From Gloeobacter kilaueensis JS1 (GTDB lineage: Bacteria > Cyanobacteriota > Cyanobacteriia > Gloeobacterales > Gloeobacteraceae): a stretch of 64,000 nucleotides of DNA. Both the position numbers and the translations under genes were made by a program. The notes below the pieces were generated by a model that saw only the letters and a program-made list of their open reading frames with translations, ran no database searches and was not told the DNA's origin. Positions within the stretch are counted from its first letter, which is position 1. Every line of letters begins with the position of its first letter. The stretch spans positions 4,332,234-4,396,233 of the forward strand of contig NC_022600.1 of assembly GCF_000484535.1 (NCBI RefSeq), written 5' to 3'. Positions 53,597 to 62,599 of this stretch are shown one piece after another.

Positions 53597-53681
53597 GGAG
53601 AGGTGACAGAGCGGTTGATTGTGACGGTCTCGAAAACCGTTGAGGCGCAAGCCTCCGGGAGTTCGAATCTCCCCCTCTCCG
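53597..53681 (+). tRNA. tRNA-Ser(CGA)
   Basis: An 85-nt tRNA. The acceptor stem GGAGAGG / CCTCTCC pairs fully, the discriminator is G, the anticodon stem ACGGT/ACCGT closes a CTCGAAA loop so the anticodon is CGA (reads UCG), the long variable arm (TGAGGCGCAAGCCTC) is class II as in Ser, and the T arm has GGGAGTTCGAATCTCCC. The 3' CCA is not encoded. Confidence 0.97.
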
Positions 53682-53757: not shown

Positions 53758-55602
53758 TTACTTATTTTTTTGGGATACAAAGCGCATGCCGTCGAAGGCG
53801 GCGGGTATACCAGGCAGATCGAACCGTGCTCGAAAGCCTGCTTTAAGAGAGGAACCTCTGCCTTCAATTGGGTAGTAGAGGTAGGGTGTACAGGGCAGTG
53901 GTGCGTACCAGCACTGCTGACCCTGGTCTGGTCTGTAAATCTGAAGGTTGCGCACCGTAAAGCGCTGCACCGCCACCGCTGGATACGTTTCCTGGTAGCG
54001 GATAAATTTGGCAGTGGGCAGATAACCTGTGTGGAGTTGCTCGATGGTTTCAAGATAATGACGGGTGATCTTAACACCGCTACCCAGTAACAATGACTCT
54101 ACTTCTGTCAGCAATACCAGGGCAACGACGACAGCTGCCACCAGCCAGGTCGGCGGCAACCATTTTTTTTCGACAACGGTTTTTAAGGCGACAACTGCAC
54201 CGGGTAGCACCAGCCCAATCGCGCCAGCAGCAACAAAGCCATAGCCAAAGCGCAAAAAAGGCGCGTTCAAAAACCAGTAGACCAGTCCAGCAGCTATCGT
54301 GATATAAACCAGCCCATATTGCCAGAGAAAAGTGACGAGCCACGCCCTGTGCAATAGCCCTGTCAGTACAAAAAGCAGGAGTGCAACGAGCAAGAACTGA
54401 GCGACTGGCGTTGCTCTAAAATTGGCCCACCAGGAAGGAAACCAGTAAGCGTAACCACCGGCCAGTACCTCGGCGGGCGGTTTGAATTGCATCCTTGCCC
54501 AGCCGGCAATCGCCAGTTGTTCACCCAAAACCACCGCCCGTGGCATTTTCCAATCGGGCGTAAACAGATCGACAGCTGCCAGGGGATAAACGAGATAGCC
54601 AGAGAGAATAACACTGCGGATCAACTTTGGGAGTAGCATCCCGAGTCCCAGCAGAAAATACCCCAGCATAGCCGCCCGTCCTTCGAGCCGAAATTGTCGG
54701 TAAGCCAGGTAGATAATCGGCAACAATAGCGGCAGAACGCTCCACTTAATGGCGACAGCAAACAAAGCAACGATAGCGATCGCTGCCTGCAGAACGCGCG
54801 TATCAGTCTTGTGAACCTGCTGCTCAAGACAACGGCAAACCAGGGCGAGCGTCACCAATGTCAAGATCGCTGCTGGTTCATCGGTTGTCGGAGAAGCAAT
54901 ATTGCCAATTAACTCCAGCAACGGCACGACCAGAAACAGACGGAAGAGGCTACTGGCCCGTACACATCCGGACCTGCGCATCTCATCGAAACCACCCAGG
55001 GCGAAGCAGAAACTGCAGAAGGCCACCAGCCCCAACAGATTGTGCAGGGGAAACTTAATGAGCCAGGAGAAGCTAAAGAGCGCACACGGCAAAAACCACA
55101 GCGAATCAACCGCAAGGGGCGCAAGCAAGTTGCCCAGGCCCGGAACCACACCGTACTGCTCGATCCAGTGGATAGAAGGGACGTGGTACAGGCCAGAATC
55201 ATAATTGAAATAGCCACGCCCTAGCCAGAGTTTGCCCAGAGAAGTAAGCGCCAGTACGCCGAGCAGAATACCAGGCATCAGCAAAAAGAGCTTGCTGGTT
55301 GCAGCAAACTGTTCGCGCAGGCAGTTCAACCAAAATACGAACGCCCGGCGGTACACCCAGCTGAAGCCGCAGGCGAATAGCAATACCAATAGATTAGCAG
55401 CCGCAGCGATAGGCATCCCTAGCGACAGATAGCCGGTAAGGCTCGCAATAACCGCCAGCCCTACCAATGGCAGAACACTAAGGGGCACTTCGATCTCGGA
55501 AGTGGCCCGCGTCTGGTTGCTATTAATTTTATAGAGGATCAACCAACCGTAAAGACCACTGAGAATCCCGATGTAGATCCAGGAGAGCACAATCGTGATC
55601 AC
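53758..55602 (-). CDS. Polytopic membrane protein, LIC_10190-like (glycan locus)
   Basis: A 614-residue integral membrane protein with about twelve to fourteen helices. A lumenal loop after the fourth helix reads GRGYFNYDSGLYHVPSIHWIEQYGVVPGLGNL; this and the topology match the LIC_10190 type and suggest a lipid-linked-sugar glycosyltransferase or polymerase (inference). The soluble C-terminus has LYYPIEGRGSSL. I chose GTG 55602 with AGAGG seven bases upstream; a TTG lies 15 bp before. It is last in the minus-strand glycan cassette, 76 bp after tRNA-Ser on the other strand. Confidence 0.82.
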   Translation of the reverse strand: MITIVLSWIYIGILSGLYGWLILYKINSNQTRATSEIEVPLSVLPLVGLAVIASLTGYLSLGMPIAAAANLLVLLFACGFSWVYRRAFVFWLNCLREQFAATSKLFLLMPGILLGVLALTSLGKLWLGRGYFNYDSGLYHVPSIHWIEQYGVVPGLGNLLAPLAVDSLWFLPCALFSFSWLIKFPLHNLLGLVAFCSFCFALGGFDEMRRSGCVRASSLFRLFLVVPLLELIGNIASPTTDEPAAILTLVTLALVCRCLEQQVHKTDTRVLQAAIAIVALFAVAIKWSVLPLLLPIIYLAYRQFRLEGRAAMLGYFLLGLGMLLPKLIRSVILSGYLVYPLAAVDLFTPDWKMPRAVVLGEQLAIAGWARMQFKPPAEVLAGGYAYWFPSWWANFRATPVAQFLLVALLLFVLTGLLHRAWLVTFLWQYGLVYITIAAGLVYWFLNAPFLRFGYGFVAAGAIGLVLPGAVVALKTVVEKKWLPPTWLVAAVVVALVLLTEVESLLLGSGVKITRHYLETIEQLHTGYLPTAKFIRYQETYPAVAVQRFTVRNLQIYRPDQGQQCWYAPLPCTPYLYYPIEGRGSSLKAGFRARFDLPGIPAAFDGMRFVSQKNK

Positions 55603-55668
55603 TGCTGGACCTCTCAATCAGAATATATTGCCAACAGTTGCAGCCCTGCACCAGTGGATTTTACCATC

Positions 55669-56115
55669 TCATTCGATTTTACTATTTGCATGGAGGATCC
55701 AGGAATTGGGCTGGAGAATTTCCCGAAGGCGTTGTTTGATCTTTTTATTTTCTCTTGTCAGCCGTTCCTGTTGTTGCTGTAGCAACAACAAGCTCTGGTT
55801 GGTCTTTTCGAGTTGTCGAGCCATGTAATCTAATTGACGAACAACCTGAGCATTTTGGGCATGGCGAAGACAAGATTCAGCCTGGAGCATCTCAATCAAG
55901 TGAATATTGGCTTTCATGATTGCAGACTCATTTTCGAGAGACGTTAAGACAGCACTTTCGATGTTTTTTGACTCATAATAACTTTCTTCGAGAAAAGAGC
56001 TGTCAAGCTTTGTTCTTATTGAAGTAAGGTTGCTTTCTAACAGGGTGATTGTAGAGAGCAGATAGTCCAGCTTTGCTAGTAGAAGATCCTTCACGACTTT
56101 TAATCTATTGATCAT
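55669..56115 (-). CDS. Stand-alone coiled-coil protein, paralogue of the FkbM protein's N-terminus
   Basis: A 148-residue protein, Leu/Gln/Glu-rich and clearly AT-rich in codons. It starts INRLKVVKDLLLAKLDYLLS and has SLENESAIMKANIHLIEML and DYMARQLEKTNQSLL. The same landmarks, in the same order, open the FkbM methyltransferase protein at 57593 (RLKTIKNELFDKLDELLA, TLENDSSIIEALIFLAQ, LRMARQLERLQEESL), so both come from one duplicated module. No enzyme domain. Its ATG overlaps the upstream gene's TGA by one base. Confidence 0.85.
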   Translation of the reverse strand: MINRLKVVKDLLLAKLDYLLSTITLLESNLTSIRTKLDSSFLEESYYESKNIESAVLTSLENESAIMKANIHLIEMLQAESCLRHAQNAQVVRQLDYMARQLEKTNQSLLLLQQQQERLTRENKKIKQRLREILQPNSWILHANSKIE

Positions 56116-57416
56116 CAGGTAATCTGCCCTCCCGGCGCAGCAAAGACTGTCTTTCTATTTTCATTCAACTTTTCAAACCTGTCGCTGCATGGGGCACCGA
56201 GGGCAAGCGAGTTCCAGATCCATTCAGCGGTACCTGCTGCAGAGAAGATGGGGGCTAGCCTGGCTGCATTCTGGCGCATGAGTGCTTGATTTTCGGTAGA
56301 AGTGACAAATTGAACTGCAGCCTGAAAAGATTCCGTCGTGTAGGCAGCGGTTACGCCAATGCCATTGCTCTCGACAAATTGAGAGGCAACCGTCTGCCGA
56401 CTGCCCAGGACAATAATGGGTGTGTGCGAGGTGCTCAAGATAAACGGAATCCGACTTGGTAAACTTAACCTGGCCAGAGCGGCCTGATCATCGTCGCTAT
56501 CGAGGGTGCCGGACGGTACCAGCACGAAGGCATAGCTGCGCAACAGAGGGACCAGTTTACTTTCAGGCAAAAATTCATCGAGTTCAATACCGTCAGCCTT
56601 GAGATCGGCTCGCTCGAATTCCAGCCACTTCATAGAAGTACTCTTGCAGTTGCACCGCCAGGAAACTTTGACCCCGCTTCCGCGCACTGTCGCCCGCAGC
56701 AATTGCAACCACCGTCTTCCCCAGATATTGCCAACGACAACCGTCGCCAGCGGATCGACTTCCAGTTGAGGATTTTCTGTTACCGGCAATTGATCGGATA
56801 CGACAGGGGGCAACAGCCAGAATCGACAACCAAATTTGTCTTCGTAAGCGCGCTGCATCTCGGCAGAGATGGCCAGGCAGAGGGACGATCTAGCGAATAA
56901 TTCTTTGAGCAACGTGTCGGGTATGGCATCAGAGTAGATATTCTGATCGTCCATGATGTACGTACACAAAGGGGCTTGCGAATAACTATGGGCGATCAGC
57001 GCCAGCCGCACCTCGTCCGGGAAATAGGGAATGCAGACAATCCGGCGAATCGCCCGGCCTTTGAGCGCACCGAGAAGTTGCGCGCCCAGTTGCAGTTGCG
57101 AGAGGCCACGCTGGGAGAGCCGATAACTTTCAGCGCCAAAATTTTGCTTCCCATCGTACAGATCCATCGACCGGATCGACAGGATGCGCGGCTGGTCCGC
57201 GAAAATTCTTTTTGTAAGGATACCCGTTCCATGCTTTTCGCTGACTTCCGCGTGGGAGAGCAGTAAGTCGATGGCGTCTTCGGGACCAACCTGAAGCTTA
57301 GAGTCGTTGAGCAGCCGATCCTGCAACAGCCTCTCACCAGAAGCAATCGAGTCAGCGATTGCTGAGCGAAGTCTACTATTTTCTGCGAAAGTATCGTGTG
57401 AGTTGGAAGTGGCCAT
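56115..57416 (-). CDS. Glycosyltransferase-like protein, paralogue 2
   Basis: A 433-residue protein without membrane helices, sharing with the protein at 58830 the blocks HGTGILTKRIF, FGAESYRLS..., CTYIMDDQNIYSDAIPD, LAISAEMQRAYEDKFGCRFWLLPPVV, TPIIVLGSRQTVASQFV, and AEWIWNSLALG. The C-terminal half has the GT-B look (a sugar-nucleotide-binding fold). A DxD motif in MDDQN occurs in both. Function unknown but probably glycosyl transfer for a surface polysaccharide. ATG start; downstream gene overlaps by one base. Confidence 0.82.
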   Translation of the reverse strand: MATSNSHDTFAENSRLRSAIADSIASGERLLQDRLLNDSKLQVGPEDAIDLLLSHAEVSEKHGTGILTKRIFADQPRILSIRSMDLYDGKQNFGAESYRLSQRGLSQLQLGAQLLGALKGRAIRRIVCIPYFPDEVRLALIAHSYSQAPLCTYIMDDQNIYSDAIPDTLLKELFARSSLCLAISAEMQRAYEDKFGCRFWLLPPVVSDQLPVTENPQLEVDPLATVVVGNIWGRRWLQLLRATVRGSGVKVSWRCNCKSTSMKWLEFERADLKADGIELDEFLPESKLVPLLRSYAFVLVPSGTLDSDDDQAALARLSLPSRIPFILSTSHTPIIVLGSRQTVASQFVESNGIGVTAAYTTESFQAAVQFVTSTENQALMRQNAARLAPIFSAAGTAEWIWNSLALGAPCSDRFEKLNENRKTVFAAPGGQIT

Positions 57417-57592
57417 CTAGACTCTGCAGCAAGCGTGAAGGACAACGGGCAGGGGAGATTGCACAGGTTGGTCCTGACTTTAGCATCTTCTAGAATGCTT
57501 TGGAATATGGAGAAAATCCTTCAGGCAAACTTCAATTCGTGCTTTGCGATGAGCAACGACCGGGGCAATGAGTCCGCGAGTGCAAAAACGGT

Positions 57593-58792
57593 TTAACTGG
57601 CAGTTGGCTCCGAGGCGATCAACGTCTGGGGCAGGCTCGCCGAGCACCATTGAAAAGCCTGGCTGAAGATGTCATGGCTCTGGAAGAAGAAAATGTTACC
57701 CCAGGATGACGCGATGGAGCGGGGAGAATTGCAGTAGAATCCGACGTCATTGCGCCCCTCGTCCCTGTGAATAACAATATGCCAGTAGTAGCCGCGACGG
57801 CGCATCTCCGCTACCTGTCTGTCCAGCCGATTGGCATCGTTTGTTGGGGCAAAGACCATTTGCTCGTCCCAATACTCGGTTGTGACGACCGGGTAGCGAT
57901 GGGTGTCCATACCACGGATAACCTCGATATCGAAACCTTCGGCGTCGATCTTGAGGAGGCCGACGGTTGCTGGTACCTCTGCGGAGCGGTGCAGGCTTGC
58001 CAGACTTCTGACCGGCACATCTACGGCCTCGACAAAGTGCAGATCGGCAGGCATCGGGTGCCTGAGCAGGCTGCTATAGAGAGTGACGTCCTTGTAGACG
58101 CCAGTGGCAGACAGATCTCGGGCGATATGCAACTGCATCGTGGTGTCGGAGGGACCGAGGGCCAACTGAAAAGGGTGAAAGTTCTCGTTGTCACCGATCC
58201 GCTGCTTAAGCTGCTCAAAAGCTGGTTGATAAGGTTCAAAGGCAAAGACCTGATACCCTACTTCCAGCAGGCGTTTCGAAATATCGCCGACATTTGCTCC
58301 CACATCGAGGGCAATGCGGGATGGCAAGAAAGTGTACAGGTAGGCCATCAGTTCTACCTCGGTACTGTCGTAGGCGGAGTACTCGAGGGGAGGAACACCG
58401 ATTTGCCTGAGAGGTTGGGCTGAGACGTCCAGCCGCTCGTTGGGAGCCGGAGTTGATCTCTGCAGCAGCTGGGGCAGCGCCCTCAATATTTGTTGTATTT
58501 CTTTTAAGTCAGTCCGGGTGCCCAGCGATTCCTCCTGCAGACGTTCGAGCTGTCGGGCCATGCGCAATAGATACTCATAATCAACCTTTTGTCCTTCCTG
58601 CACCCTCTGAGCAAGAAAAATCAGCGCTTCGATTATCGAAGAATCATTTTCGAGCGTCGAAGCGCCAGCCGTCGTTATCGCTGCCATATTCTCCAGCAAC
58701 AAGTCCAGTTTGCGGATGTGGGCCAGCAATTCGTCCAGCTTGTCGAAAAGCTCATTTTTGATTGTTTTCAGCCTGGCTGGTCTGAGGAACAC
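57593..58792 (-). CDS. Coiled-coil + FkbM-family methyltransferase fusion
   Basis: A 399-residue protein. Residues about 1-115 are a coiled coil (RLKTIKNELFDKLDELLA, MARQLERLQEESL). After a linker comes an FkbM SAM methyltransferase: IALDVGANVGDISKRLLEVG, FAFEPYQPAFEQL, GLLKIDAEGFDIEVIRGM. FkbM enzymes methylate sugar hydroxyls, so it could cap or decorate a surface glycan. The GTG start has AAGGTG seven bases upstream. It stands between the two glycosyltransferase-like paralogues. Confidence 0.9.
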   Translation of the reverse strand: MFLRPARLKTIKNELFDKLDELLAHIRKLDLLLENMAAITTAGASTLENDSSIIEALIFLAQRVQEGQKVDYEYLLRMARQLERLQEESLGTRTDLKEIQQILRALPQLLQRSTPAPNERLDVSAQPLRQIGVPPLEYSAYDSTEVELMAYLYTFLPSRIALDVGANVGDISKRLLEVGYQVFAFEPYQPAFEQLKQRIGDNENFHPFQLALGPSDTTMQLHIARDLSATGVYKDVTLYSSLLRHPMPADLHFVEAVDVPVRSLASLHRSAEVPATVGLLKIDAEGFDIEVIRGMDTHRYPVVTTEYWDEQMVFAPTNDANRLDRQVAEMRRRGYYWHIVIHRDEGRNDVGFYCNSPRSIASSWGNIFFFQSHDIFSQAFQWCSASLPQTLIASEPTAS

Positions 58793-58829
58793 AACAATTC
58801 ACCTTTTATCCTGTATAAAGCGTGACCTG

Positions 58830-60164
58830 TTATTTTCTGGTGGTATTCCAGGCACTGAATAGATTTTCAAATCGACCATCGCTTGCCTTGCCTGCCGCAA
58901 CAGAATGCCAGATCCAATCTGCCACAGCGTCAGCGGAAAATGCAGCGGCGACAGCGGCGGCGTTGCGACGGTACCTGCACTGATTTTCAGTAACCATGAT
59001 CTGCCCAAGAGCCTGCTGAAAACTCGCCGCCTCATAATCGCTGACAGTACCGATGTCGAGGCACCTGATAAAGTGCGCTGCGGAGGTCTGTTCGCTGCCC
59101 ATGACGATGACCGGCGTGTTGGCGGTGGCCATCGCAAACAGTATTCGCCCCGGCAGGCTCAAACTGAGATCCGGACGGTCCTCTACGCCATCGAGCAGAC
59201 CGGTCGGCACCAACACAAAAGGTGCCTGGCGAAGCAGGTTAACCAGGGTCGCTTCTGCTACCAGTCCTCTGGCGGTGATGCCGGATTGGGCCATCACTTC
59301 TGTAGAAAGTCCTGTGAAAGTGTGGGGCTGGCCGTACCAGTCCAGCTTGCAACCGGCCCCCTTTACTGCAGTGCAAAGAAGTGAGAGCCAGTTCTCGCTC
59401 CACATGCTGCCAATTAAAATACCTGGGCGATCAAACCGCTCGGGCAGTGTGGCAGCCGTCTGGATAAACTGCTCAGGTGCAACCGCCGGCAGCAGCCAGA
59501 AGGTGAAGCCAAACTTTTCTTCGTAGGCCTGACGCATTTCTGGGTGGGTTGCCAGCCGCAGGGAAGCTTTGGAGAGAAACTCTTGCATCAGGGCATCAGG
59601 AATGGCACTGACTGTAATATTTTGATCGTCCATGATCCAGATGACCAGGGGGACATCAAATATCTCTTTGACGGCGATAGCAAAGAGCAACTGCTCGGTG
59701 GAATAGGGAACGCAGAAAATCCTCTGGATATCCTGGCTTTTGAGGAGCCTGCTTGCCAGAAGAAAAATCTCCTGTCGCGAACATCCCTTCAACGATAAAC
59801 ATAAATTACTGTAGCCGAAGCGCTGAAGACCGCCGTAGTTGTTGCTGGAGCGCACAGAAAGGATATTTGTGTCATCTTTGAAAATTCTTTTTAGAAGCAC
59901 CCCCGTGCCATGGTTTTCGACAACCTCATCGAGGGTGATCAAAAGAGTTGCATTGGCCGTCTTCGGAAGCAGCGAGTCGTCATCAGATTCTTGCATCACG
60001 ATACTGGTGACCGACGAGACAGGCTCGCTTGTGGCGATGAGTGCAGCCAGCTTTTCGCGCAGTTCGGCGTTTCTTTGCGCTTTCTGGTCCATCAACCCGT
60101 GCCAGTTGATATCCACGCTCCCGTCTCCTTGACTTCGGTGTGTCTGTTGAGCGGATAGTTGCAT
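58830..60164 (-). CDS. Glycosyltransferase-like protein, paralogue 1
   Basis: A 444-residue soluble protein, the longer copy of the paralogous pair. Shared motifs: ENHGTGVLLKRIF, FGYSNLCLSLKG, LVIWIMDDQNITVSAIPD, EMRQAYEEKFGFTFWLLPAV, TPVIVMGSEQTSAAHFI, and ADWIWHSVAAG. The N-terminal 50 residues are different and likely flexible. Its ATG follows the ABC ATPase stop without a gap (TGA-ATG), so it is translationally coupled to the exporter. Function inferred as glycosyl transfer. Confidence 0.82.
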   Translation of the reverse strand: MQLSAQQTHRSQGDGSVDINWHGLMDQKAQRNAELREKLAALIATSEPVSSVTSIVMQESDDDSLLPKTANATLLITLDEVVENHGTGVLLKRIFKDDTNILSVRSSNNYGGLQRFGYSNLCLSLKGCSRQEIFLLASRLLKSQDIQRIFCVPYSTEQLLFAIAVKEIFDVPLVIWIMDDQNITVSAIPDALMQEFLSKASLRLATHPEMRQAYEEKFGFTFWLLPAVAPEQFIQTAATLPERFDRPGILIGSMWSENWLSLLCTAVKGAGCKLDWYGQPHTFTGLSTEVMAQSGITARGLVAEATLVNLLRQAPFVLVPTGLLDGVEDRPDLSLSLPGRILFAMATANTPVIVMGSEQTSAAHFIRCLDIGTVSDYEAASFQQALGQIMVTENQCRYRRNAAAVAAAFSADAVADWIWHSVAAGKASDGRFENLFSAWNTTRK

Positions 60165-60920
60165 TCAACCAATGTTAGCGGCCCCAGAGCGGGTGGAGTC
60201 GAGATAGAGCCCCACCACCTCAGTAGCCGGACCACTGCAGACGATTCGACCGCCGCTCAGCCAGACCGCCCGCTCGCAGGACTGTTCGATGAAGGGCAGA
60301 TCGTGGGAGACCACTAAGACCGTGGTGTGCGACTGCCAGAACTGCCCCAACCGGTTGCGGCACTTTTCTTTGAAGCGCTCGTCTCCCACCGAAAGCACCT
60401 CGTCGAGGATCAAGATGTCCGGCGGTACGTCGGTGGCGATAGCAAAGCCCAACCGGGCGGTCATGCCCGAGGAAAGCGTCTTCACCGGTACGTCGGCGTA
60501 GGACTCCAGATCCGCAAAGCGCAAGATCTCCTGGCTGCGCTCGCGCATCTGCTGGCGGGAGAAGCCCAAAAACACGCCGTAGAGCACGATGTTGTCCACC
60601 AGCGACAGCTCCGAGTCGAACCCGGCCCCGAGTTCGATGAGGGGGGCGATGTCGCCCTGGACCCGGACTTCGCCCGTGTTGGGCTTTAAGATGCCGCAGA
60701 TCACCTTGAGCAAGGTAGATTTGCCGGAGCCGTTCGAGCCGATGATCCCCAGCTTCTCACCGGCACTGACCACCAGATCGATGCGGTCGAGCACCTGCTT
60801 GCGGCCAGGCTTGCGGTAGCGGCCATCCAGAAACGAGAGGATGGTGGTCTTGAGATCGTAGGAGAACTCTTCCTGGGTGCGCCGCCAGAGGGAGACGTTA
60901 TTGAGCCGTATAACTTCCAA
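60165..60920 (-). CDS. Polysaccharide-export ABC transporter ATP-binding protein (Wzt/TagH-like)
   Basis: A 251-residue ABC ATPase. Walker A GSNGSGKST, signature LSSGMTARLGFA, Walker B DILILDEVLSVGD, and His in VVSHDL. The segment IAPLIELGAGFDSELS is the diagnostic for exporters of O-antigen, teichoic acid and other polysaccharides. It lacks a C-terminal carbohydrate-binding domain, so export does not depend on a capped chain by that route. TTG start. Next gene begins directly after its TGA. Confidence 0.93.
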   Translation of the reverse strand: MEVIRLNNVSLWRRTQEEFSYDLKTTILSFLDGRYRKPGRKQVLDRIDLVVSAGEKLGIIGSNGSGKSTLLKVICGILKPNTGEVRVQGDIAPLIELGAGFDSELSLVDNIVLYGVFLGFSRQQMRERSQEILRFADLESYADVPVKTLSSGMTARLGFAIATDVPPDILILDEVLSVGDERFKEKCRNRLGQFWQSHTTVLVVSHDLPFIEQSCERAVWLSGGRIVCSGPATEVVGLYLDSTRSGAANIG

Positions 60921-60967
60921 GCCAATGTTTGAGATGAACTTTTAGGCAGCCTAACCCGATTCGGAGC

Positions 60968-61792
60968 CTACAACAAGTCCATGTACTGGTCGGAGCGGGC
61001 ATTAAAAAACAGAGCGCCGATGGTGCAGACGACCGTACCTGAGAGCAGCGCGATTCCCAGTACGCCCCAACTGAGATCGGCCCGACCGAGGATGAGCTGG
61101 CGCAGGCCCTCGATGATCGGCGTCAGGGGATTGAGATCGATGAATGTCTTGACCTGCTTGGGCACGATCGCCGCCGGATAGAACACGGGACTACTGAGAA
61201 ACAGGGCAAAGGCCACCAGTTCGTAGAGGTAGGGCAGATCTCGAAAAAATACGTACAGGGCGCTCACCAGGAAGCTGATACCTGTGGCGGCGAGCACCAG
61301 AGCTACGGAGGGGATCACCAAAAGCAGCGCATAGAACGGATTGTGGGAGACCACCAGCGTCATCACAGCCAGCAGCGGCAGGGGACCGACGACGAACTGA
61401 AAGATGTTGGATAAGACCAGCGACAGGGGCAGGATGCTGAAGGGCAGGCGGATCTTGTTGAGCAGGGCACCGCTGTTGACGACACTCGGCAGCGCCTGGG
61501 TAGTGGTGACGTTAAAGAAGTTGATTACCACGAGCCCGGTGAAGGCGGCGAGCAGGTAGTTGAGCAGCGAATGGTCGTAGTAGGCGGCAAAAGTGGTGCC
61601 AAAGATGGCCGTATAGGCGGCAGTCATCAGCAGGGGATTGAGAAGCGACCAGTACACCCCCAGAATCGAGCCTCGATAGCGCACCTTGAGGTTGCGCTGG
61701 GTAAGCACAAAAAGCAATTCCAGGTAGCGGTGGGCTGAGGGAGCCAGTTTTTCGAGTGGGAGTGCGCGCAGCATTGTGGCGAGACTGGGCAT
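60968..61792 (-). CDS. Polysaccharide-export ABC transporter permease (Wzm-like)
   Basis: A 274-residue ABC-2 permease with six predicted helices. Family marks: FVLTQRNLKVRYRGSILGVYWSLLNPLL at the N-terminus, the LLNKIRLPFSILPLSLV middle, FFRDLPYLYELVAFALFLSSPVFYP, and a C-terminal LNPLTPIIEGLRQLIL. Works with the ATPase encoded next (47-bp gap) to export a lipid-linked glycan across the inner membrane. Its ATG follows the VOC stop with no gap. Confidence 0.94.
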   Translation of the reverse strand: MPSLATMLRALPLEKLAPSAHRYLELLFVLTQRNLKVRYRGSILGVYWSLLNPLLMTAAYTAIFGTTFAAYYDHSLLNYLLAAFTGLVVINFFNVTTTQALPSVVNSGALLNKIRLPFSILPLSLVLSNIFQFVVGPLPLLAVMTLVVSHNPFYALLLVIPSVALVLAATGISFLVSALYVFFRDLPYLYELVAFALFLSSPVFYPAAIVPKQVKTFIDLNPLTPIIEGLRQLILGRADLSWGVLGIALLSGTVVCTIGALFFNARSDQYMDLL

Positions 61793-62170
61793 CTACTTAC
61801 CATACGGCACTTCGCCCAGTTCGAGAATGTTACCGTCTGGATCTTGGACGAAGAAGGCGGCCCGGCCCGAGGCGCTCGCTTGAACGGGGAAGCCCGCTTT
61901 TTCTAAGCGATCCCTGGCAGCCAAAAGATCGTCCACGGCCAGCGCCAGGTGACGGTTGCGCCCCAGCCTCTGGGCATCGACTGGATCCGGGCAAATCTGA
62001 GCAGAGACGATGAGATGAATCTGAAAATCCCCCAGCTCGTACCACAGACCCGCAAAGCCCAGGGCTCGATCGCGAGCCGGGGTGAGCCCCAGCACCTCAC
62101 CGTAAAAGTGGGCGGACCGTTCGAGGTCACCTACCAGGATCGCCGCGTGCAAAGGACGGATGACGCGCAT
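61793..62170 (-). CDS. VOC-family (glyoxalase-like) protein
   Basis: A 125-residue protein with two beta-alpha-beta-beta-beta halves: PLHAAILVGDLERSAHFYGEVLGL and RNRHLALAVDDLLAARDRLEKAGF. Metal ligands: His8 in the first strand, His in RHLAL, and the final Glu in GNILELGE; so a divalent-metal enzyme. Substrate unknown (family members include glyoxalase, dioxygenase and fosfomycin resistance). It heads the minus-strand glycan cassette: its TAG is followed at once by the permease ATG. The ATG at 62170 is 73 bp from the RNase P RNA start on the other strand. Confidence 0.88.
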   Translation of the reverse strand: MRVIRPLHAAILVGDLERSAHFYGEVLGLTPARDRALGFAGLWYELGDFQIHLIVSAQICPDPVDAQRLGRNRHLALAVDDLLAARDRLEKAGFPVQASASGRAAFFVQDPDGNILELGEVPYGK

Positions 62171-62242: not shown

Positions 62243-62599
62243 GCGGAGGAGTTGGCGCGGTGGTCGCGGGCCGGGCAACCGGCCTGAGGAAAGTCCGGGC
62301 TCCCCAACGAGCGGATTGCTGGGTAACGCCCAGTGCGCGCGAGCGTGAGGATAGTGCCACAGAAACATACCGCCGATGGGAGTGGCAACACTCCACAGGC
62401 AAGGGTGCAAAGGTGCGGTAAGAGCGCACCAGCGACATCGAGAGGTGTCGGCTCGGTAAACCCCGTCCTGAGCAAGGCGGGGGACAGATGGGTTGCTCGT
62501 TGACCGTCCCCCAAAAGCCGCTTGAGGCGTCAGGCAACTGGCGTCCCAGACAGATGACCGCCCTTCGAACAGAACCCGGCTTACGTCCGGCTCCTCCAC
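62243..62599 (+). ncRNA. rnpB: RNase P RNA (class A, cyanobacterial)
   Basis: The 5' part GAGGAGTTGGCGCGG and the P4-strand GAGGAAAGTCCGGGCTCC are the universal RNase P RNA landmarks, followed by conserved CAGTGCGCGCGAGCGTGAGG, AGAGTG-like AGTGGCAACACTCCACAGG, the ...GGTAAACCCC region, ACAGAA in CGAACAGAACCCGGCTTACG, and a 3' end CTCCTCC that pairs with the 5' GGAGGAG. About 357 nt, normal for a cyanobacterium. It forms the catalytic part of RNase P, which trims tRNA 5' ends. Confidence 0.95.

Follow-up and report, generated by a model that had tools for sequence, protein, structure and literature searches.

A glycosyltransferase and coiled-coil module within a surface-glycan export operon of Gloeobacter kilaueensis: a putative scaffold for glycan synthesis

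In O-antigen systems that depend on ABC transporters, a coiled coil keeps a chain-terminating methyltransferase apart from a polymerase that contains several glycosyltransferase (GT) modules (dual-GT), which sets the length of the chain (PMC11231755; PMC3482155). The WbdD/WbdA pairs of E. coli O9a and O8 and of Klebsiella O3/O5 work in this way (PMC3482155, PMC11231755). Among cyanobacteria, the Synechocystis Wzm/Wzt exporters slr0977/slr0982 and sll0574/sll0575 are known from mutants with altered exopolysaccharide, and no GT and coiled-coil module has been described with them (PMC3769361). Here, we describe a locus of Gloeobacter kilaueensis JS1 in which an exporter of the same ABC class is encoded together with two GTs and two coiled-coil proteins, one of which carries a methyltransferase of the FkbM family. 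The genome is a single contig of 4,724,791 bases (NC_022600.1), and the stretch analysed, hereafter the window, covers 64,000 nucleotides of it (positions 4,332,234 to 4,396,233). A literature search for FkbM proteins combined with a coiled coil and a glycosyltransferase in cyanobacteria found no paper.

Eight open reading frames (ORFs) on the minus strand of the window encode, in order of transcription, a VOC protein, the permease Wzm, the ATPase Wzt, a first GT (GT1), a coiled coil followed by an FkbM methyltransferase (coil-FkbM), a second GT (GT2), a coil-only protein (CC2) and a LIC_10190-family membrane protein (LIC). This order and these families had been listed in the initial annotation, and all of them hold, as do the tight junctions reported there: the successive intergenic distances are 0, 47, 0, 37, 176, -1 and 51 nt, with 0-nt gaps at 61792/61793 and 60164/60165 and a 1-nt overlap at 56115 between the CC2 gene and the GT2 stop. 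The genes of main interest are GT1 (58830..60164), coil-FkbM (57593..58792), GT2 (56115..57416) and CC2 (55669..56115; 148 aa), the last assigned by its coil-family match (E 1.1e-20) and by alignment. As in WbdD/WbdA systems, a coiled coil is joined to a methyltransferase, as judged from alignment and periodicity; GT modules are encoded alongside, two per protein in most relatives of the module, and in the window Wzm and Wzt are present too.

Comparison across cyanobacterial genomes indicates that GT and coil are a genuine module, because they co-occur and are usually adjacent. In a first sample of 386 genomes, the GT family was found in 11, coil-FkbM in 10 and the coil profile in 10; all ten coil-FkbM genomes and all nine genomes with a reliable coil match fall within the 11 that carry the GT, and one coil-profile match, in G212 (E 8e-4), was treated as chance. 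The hypergeometric probability of the overlap between coil-FkbM and GT is 6e-19 when genomes are counted and 1e-8 when genera are counted, the latter being the fairer value since genomes are not independent. A second sample of 293 genomes, drawn around another centre and overlapping partly with the first, gave a GT in 14/14 coil genomes, including seven new ones that had been absent from the building of the coil profile. In six of these seven, the coil-FkbM gene lies directly after the GT gene, and the seventh, G593, has a coil-only gene one gene away from the GT. The G. kilaueensis genome itself has two further GT sites (L036 and L037), and a coil gene stands 3' of the GT at all four. The initial annotation had proposed that the two genes belong together, and a distribution in which they occur mostly apart was not what we observed. 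Two genomes, G076 and G151, have the GT with no coil match and contain broken coil-FkbM genes. In G076, a fragment of an apparent repeat-rich surface-protein gene has replaced the coil together with the beginning of coil-FkbM.

Neither GT1 nor GT2 matches a curated family of its own, and sequence searches of the GT against the PDB returned no glycosyltransferase among the matches. A model built from an alignment of 21 relatives was confident (pLDDT 86.2, pTM 0.84) and could be superposed over its whole length on known GT-B enzymes. Foldseek matched GT-B enzymes along the full length of the model, with MshA at E 3e-11, and the closest structure was HepE (Z 25.9, root-mean-square deviation 3.5 Å over 325 residues). 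HepE (Alr3699) is an enzyme of the heterocyst-envelope polysaccharide pathway of Anabaena; it and other GT-B/GT4 enzymes have the two-domain GT-B fold in common with the window GTs, but identity to HepE is only 12%, and the window family differs from GT4 enzymes in its conserved residues. Across the 21-sequence alignment there is no EX7E pair of the GT4 kind, the sole conserved glutamate columns being E35 and E259, and the family has conserved motifs of its own, HGTG, MDDQN and SLPxR. Weak Glycos_transf_1 matches (PF00534/PF13692) occur in some relatives. By their predicted GT-B fold, both proteins are glycosyltransferases, as first annotated, and no structural match pointing to a different kind of protein was seen.

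The two GTs are 42% identical over 401 residues (score 693; best of 200 shuffles, 64). The initial annotation had read the locus as a duplicated unit of GT plus coil, and the unit is indeed present twice, once with FkbM; its local duplication did not stand. In the tree, GT1 groups with the C-terminal GT copies of two-GT proteins in Synechocystis relatives (support 100/99) and GT2 does not, and a clade of GT1 with GT2 was ruled out by the approximately unbiased (AU) test (p 0.0013), so the window pair represents two old paralogs and no recent duplication of the unit. Beyond Cyanobacteria, the searches covered plasmid and viral collections, and relatives of the GT were absent from both; a scan of genome contigs with one protein returned only Synechocystis salina.

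The window coil-FkbM protein begins with a coiled coil (about residues 7-112) whose period of 3.50 was reached by 0/500 shuffles. The methyltransferase behind it passes both curated cut-offs of the FkbM family (PF05050, 43.4 against 22.7 bits; TIGR01444, 85.8 against 37.7 bits) and has an intact S-adenosylmethionine (SAM) motif, ALDVGANVGD. Relative to the family, the protein has two additions, the N-terminal coil, whose length varies, and a tail conserved at the C-terminus, WHIxxYR...FYCN...FFF...LPxTYF. CC2 has a conserved N-terminal motif, RxKxxKDLxLxKLD, and the two window coils are 43% identical over 97 residues (score 94; best shuffle 66). The CC2 gene has a GC content of 40.5%, compared with about 61% for the window ORFs.

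The coil persists where the methyltransferase does not. In the other Gloeobacter genomes and at L036, the coil and the C-terminal tail have been kept, while the SAM motif DVGANxGD is lost and PF05050 finds no match (L036, L060 and L061). These relatives show dN/dS values of 0.19-0.33 across species, which indicates purifying selection and rules out decayed pseudogenes. Furthermore, the coil occurs alone at four sites, CC2 and L037 in this genome, L047 in G011 and L156 in G593; the last two may reflect one event, since they have a common architecture. Retention of the coil without a working methyltransferase, or alone, favours a structural role, and the evidence as a whole favours a coil that acts for the GT and not for the exporter.

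The coil also varies in length, much more than the remainder of the protein. The distance between the N-terminal motif and the SAM motif ranges from 150 to 236 residues, and the ends of the coil proteins are conserved while the middle is not. For instance, the FkbM domains of G357 and G605 are 98% identical, with coils that differ by 57 residues (motif-to-motif distances of 207 and 150 residues, respectively); similarly, those of G095 and G605 are 96% identical, with coils that differ by 65 residues. In G145, the lengthening consists partly of 14-residue (two-heptad) repeats, as read from the alignment. As a sign of a ruler, this variation is suggestive only, because relaxed constraint would explain it too.

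Other genomes present the module in different architectures. Synechocystis relatives encode two GT copies as a single fused protein of 780-1040 residues, with coil-FkbM coming next, and several of these fused proteins have a second FkbM domain after the GT copies. The number of GT modules ranges from one to three: G596 (L150:1342-4824) has three copies in one protein, followed by coil-FkbM. Synechocystis salina (G093, L049:8475-13268) encodes a 1597-residue protein in which a GT-family domain is accompanied by sulfotransferase, radical-SAM/SPASM and class-III aminotransferase domains. An apparent repeat-rich surface-protein gene lies directly behind the fused GT gene at L038:3-1976 and L039:12241-12705. 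Exporter neighbours vary as well. Most genomes have no Wzm/Wzt near the module; G447 has a family GT without a coil (L157:7377-11542) at a distance of 1.2 kb from close orthologs of the window Wzm/Wzt; and a related pair, GT-FkbM plus coil, stands beside a Wzz/GNVR/AAA (Wzc-like) gene in G388 and G386. These varied neighbours indicate that the module is tied to surface-glycan work and not to one exporter.

In the window, the exporter consists of the adjacent ABC-2 permease Wzm (60968..61792; PF01061, 57.4 bits) and the Wzt-like ATPase (60165..60920; PF00005, 79.1 bits), the arrangement of an ABC-transporter-dependent polysaccharide exporter. Wzt is a short form of 251 aa; its best model is the NCBIfam galactan-export Wzt, although under the equivalog cut-off (185 of 400 bits), and it is 77-78% identical to Wzt of other Gloeobacter and 59-70% identical to that of Synechocystis relatives. 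LIC (53758..55617; NF047510, 238.4 bits against a cut-off of 100) is a polytopic membrane protein, 56-57% identical to its syntenic orthologs in other Gloeobacter. Its structural model was poor (pLDDT 48.6) and its Foldseek matches were not significant, several of the higher-probability ones being GT-C enzymes (AftA, EmbB, PglB). In G602, the GT/coil module is followed, about 4.3 kb downstream, by a distant LIC relative (L151:14057-15829).

At the corresponding site of three other Gloeobacter genomes (L124-L126; G386-G388, called Gloeobacter here because they are listed in the same genus as the window genome), the order is rnpB, Wzm, Wzt, LptF/G, LIC and a GT2-family gene, with Wzm syntenic in all three and no GT/coil module. 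In the window, the module occupies the LptF/G position, between Wzt and LIC. Gene order and orthology thus identify Wzm-Wzt-LIC as an ancestral Gloeobacter operon, older than the presence of the module at this locus. The LptF/G homologue (59% identical) lies elsewhere in this genome, at G000:C1:4179442-4180545, a rearrangement of the export operon. The glyoxalase-fold VOC protein (61793..62170, minus strand; 125 aa; PF00903, 49.6 bits) is not present between rnpB and Wzm in L124-L126 and is probably peripheral to the operon and incidental to it; a 284-aa reading of its ORF was rejected as spurious because it overlaps rnpB. The RNase P RNA gene rnpB (62248..62598, plus strand; RF00010, 239.9 bits) forms the upstream boundary of the operon; 78 bases separate its start from that of the VOC gene, and it is divergent, being transcribed away from the operon. 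A tRNA gene (53597..53681, plus strand) forms the other boundary. The frequency of promoter-like sites did not exceed that in shuffled sequences.

The explanation that we consider to have about an even chance of being right is that a glycan-building module was set into this ancestral surface-glycan export operon. The module would consist of GT-B glycosyltransferases, each with a coiled-coil partner that binds the GT and positions it at the membrane. FkbM, where present, would be held at the far end of the coil, where it would methylate the growing chain, and perhaps terminate it, with the coil setting the distance, and the finished chain would leave via Wzm/Wzt. Physical binding, methylation of the chain, ruler action and the route of export are steps that we infer. 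The coil would be a scaffold, and here the analogy with the enterobacterial coiled-coil systems could go either way; that it might also be a length ruler is a tentative extension of the same analogy. More speculative still is the proposal that the coils are an adaptor family for one GT family, not homologous to WbdD, with an optional methyltransferase at the tip and with changes in coil length that act as a natural glycan-length ruler in cyanobacteria.

Several observations weigh against this explanation. In WbdD, the enzyme is N-terminal and the coil C-terminal, together with the region that binds membrane and polymerase, whereas in the window protein the coil comes first, and in WbdD systems the PF14524 domain of Wzt reads the cap, whereas the window Wzt has no C-terminal carbohydrate-binding domain and no PF14524 match (the 428-aa Wzt of G402, a positive control, carries PF14524). 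Because of these two differences, we do not assign the locus to the WbdD type, and any likeness in working is offered by analogy. The window methyltransferase is moreover an FkbM, as opposed to the methyltransferase(-kinase) of WbdD, and the module, unlike WbdD, has coil-only and dead-enzyme forms and is usually unlinked to Wzm/Wzt. The general co-occurrence with Wzm/Wzt that the initial annotation implied was not borne out, being seen only in the window and, for a GT without a coil, in G447. Two genomes with the GT, G447 and G607, lack any coil match, the missing EX7E pair bears on donor use, the heptad periodicity of CC2 on its own is not significant (p 0.12), and coil length could vary merely through lack of constraint.

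Glycan clusters commonly have FkbM enzymes and GTs side by side, and the GTs and FkbM of the window could be free enzymes acting in series, adding and O-methylating side sugars, with a coil that only oligomerises the methyltransferase or attaches it to the membrane and does nothing for the GT. The direct fusion of a second FkbM domain to GTs in other genomes would agree with this, as coupling of GT and methyltransferase then needs no coil. However, even with a dead or missing methyltransferase the coil is kept and stays beside the GT; this points to a function that concerns the GT itself, and we regard free enzymes as rather unlikely.

A module placed by chance between Wzt and LIC, with a product that leaves otherwise, for example by Wzx/Wzy/Wzc, would account for the Gloeobacter operons that have Wzm-Wzt-LptF/G-LIC and no module, for the Wzc-like gene beside the related pair in G388 and G386 and for the lack of Wzm/Wzt at most other loci. 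Such a chance neighbourhood fits less well with the abutting stop and start of Wzt and GT1, with the single strand of all the genes and with the proximity of a family GT to Wzm/Wzt in G447, and it seems unlikely to us. We find it more improbable still that GT1 plus coil-FkbM and GT2 plus coil form a horizontal patchwork, acquired separately and each making its own glycan linkage unaided, with no joint function. The separate positions of GT1 and GT2 in the tree speak for it, as does the GC content of the module genes (0.41-0.55, compared with 0.61 for the window ORFs), but other genomes have proteins with two or three fused GT copies, so paired working is common, and low GC is no proof of recent transfer, because the vertically inherited LIC is equally low.

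Coiled-coil control of chain length has so far been described in a few O-antigen systems of enterobacteria. If the scaffold and ruler explanation is true, this cyanobacterial module would be a second, independent design, which would show the coiled coil to be a general solution to the control of chain length. The near-identical natural pairs with different coil lengths make the ruler idea directly testable. Moreover, this work delineates a GT-B family that is unclassified and has a strict partner, and it provides hints of function for proteins that are otherwise annotated as hypothetical.

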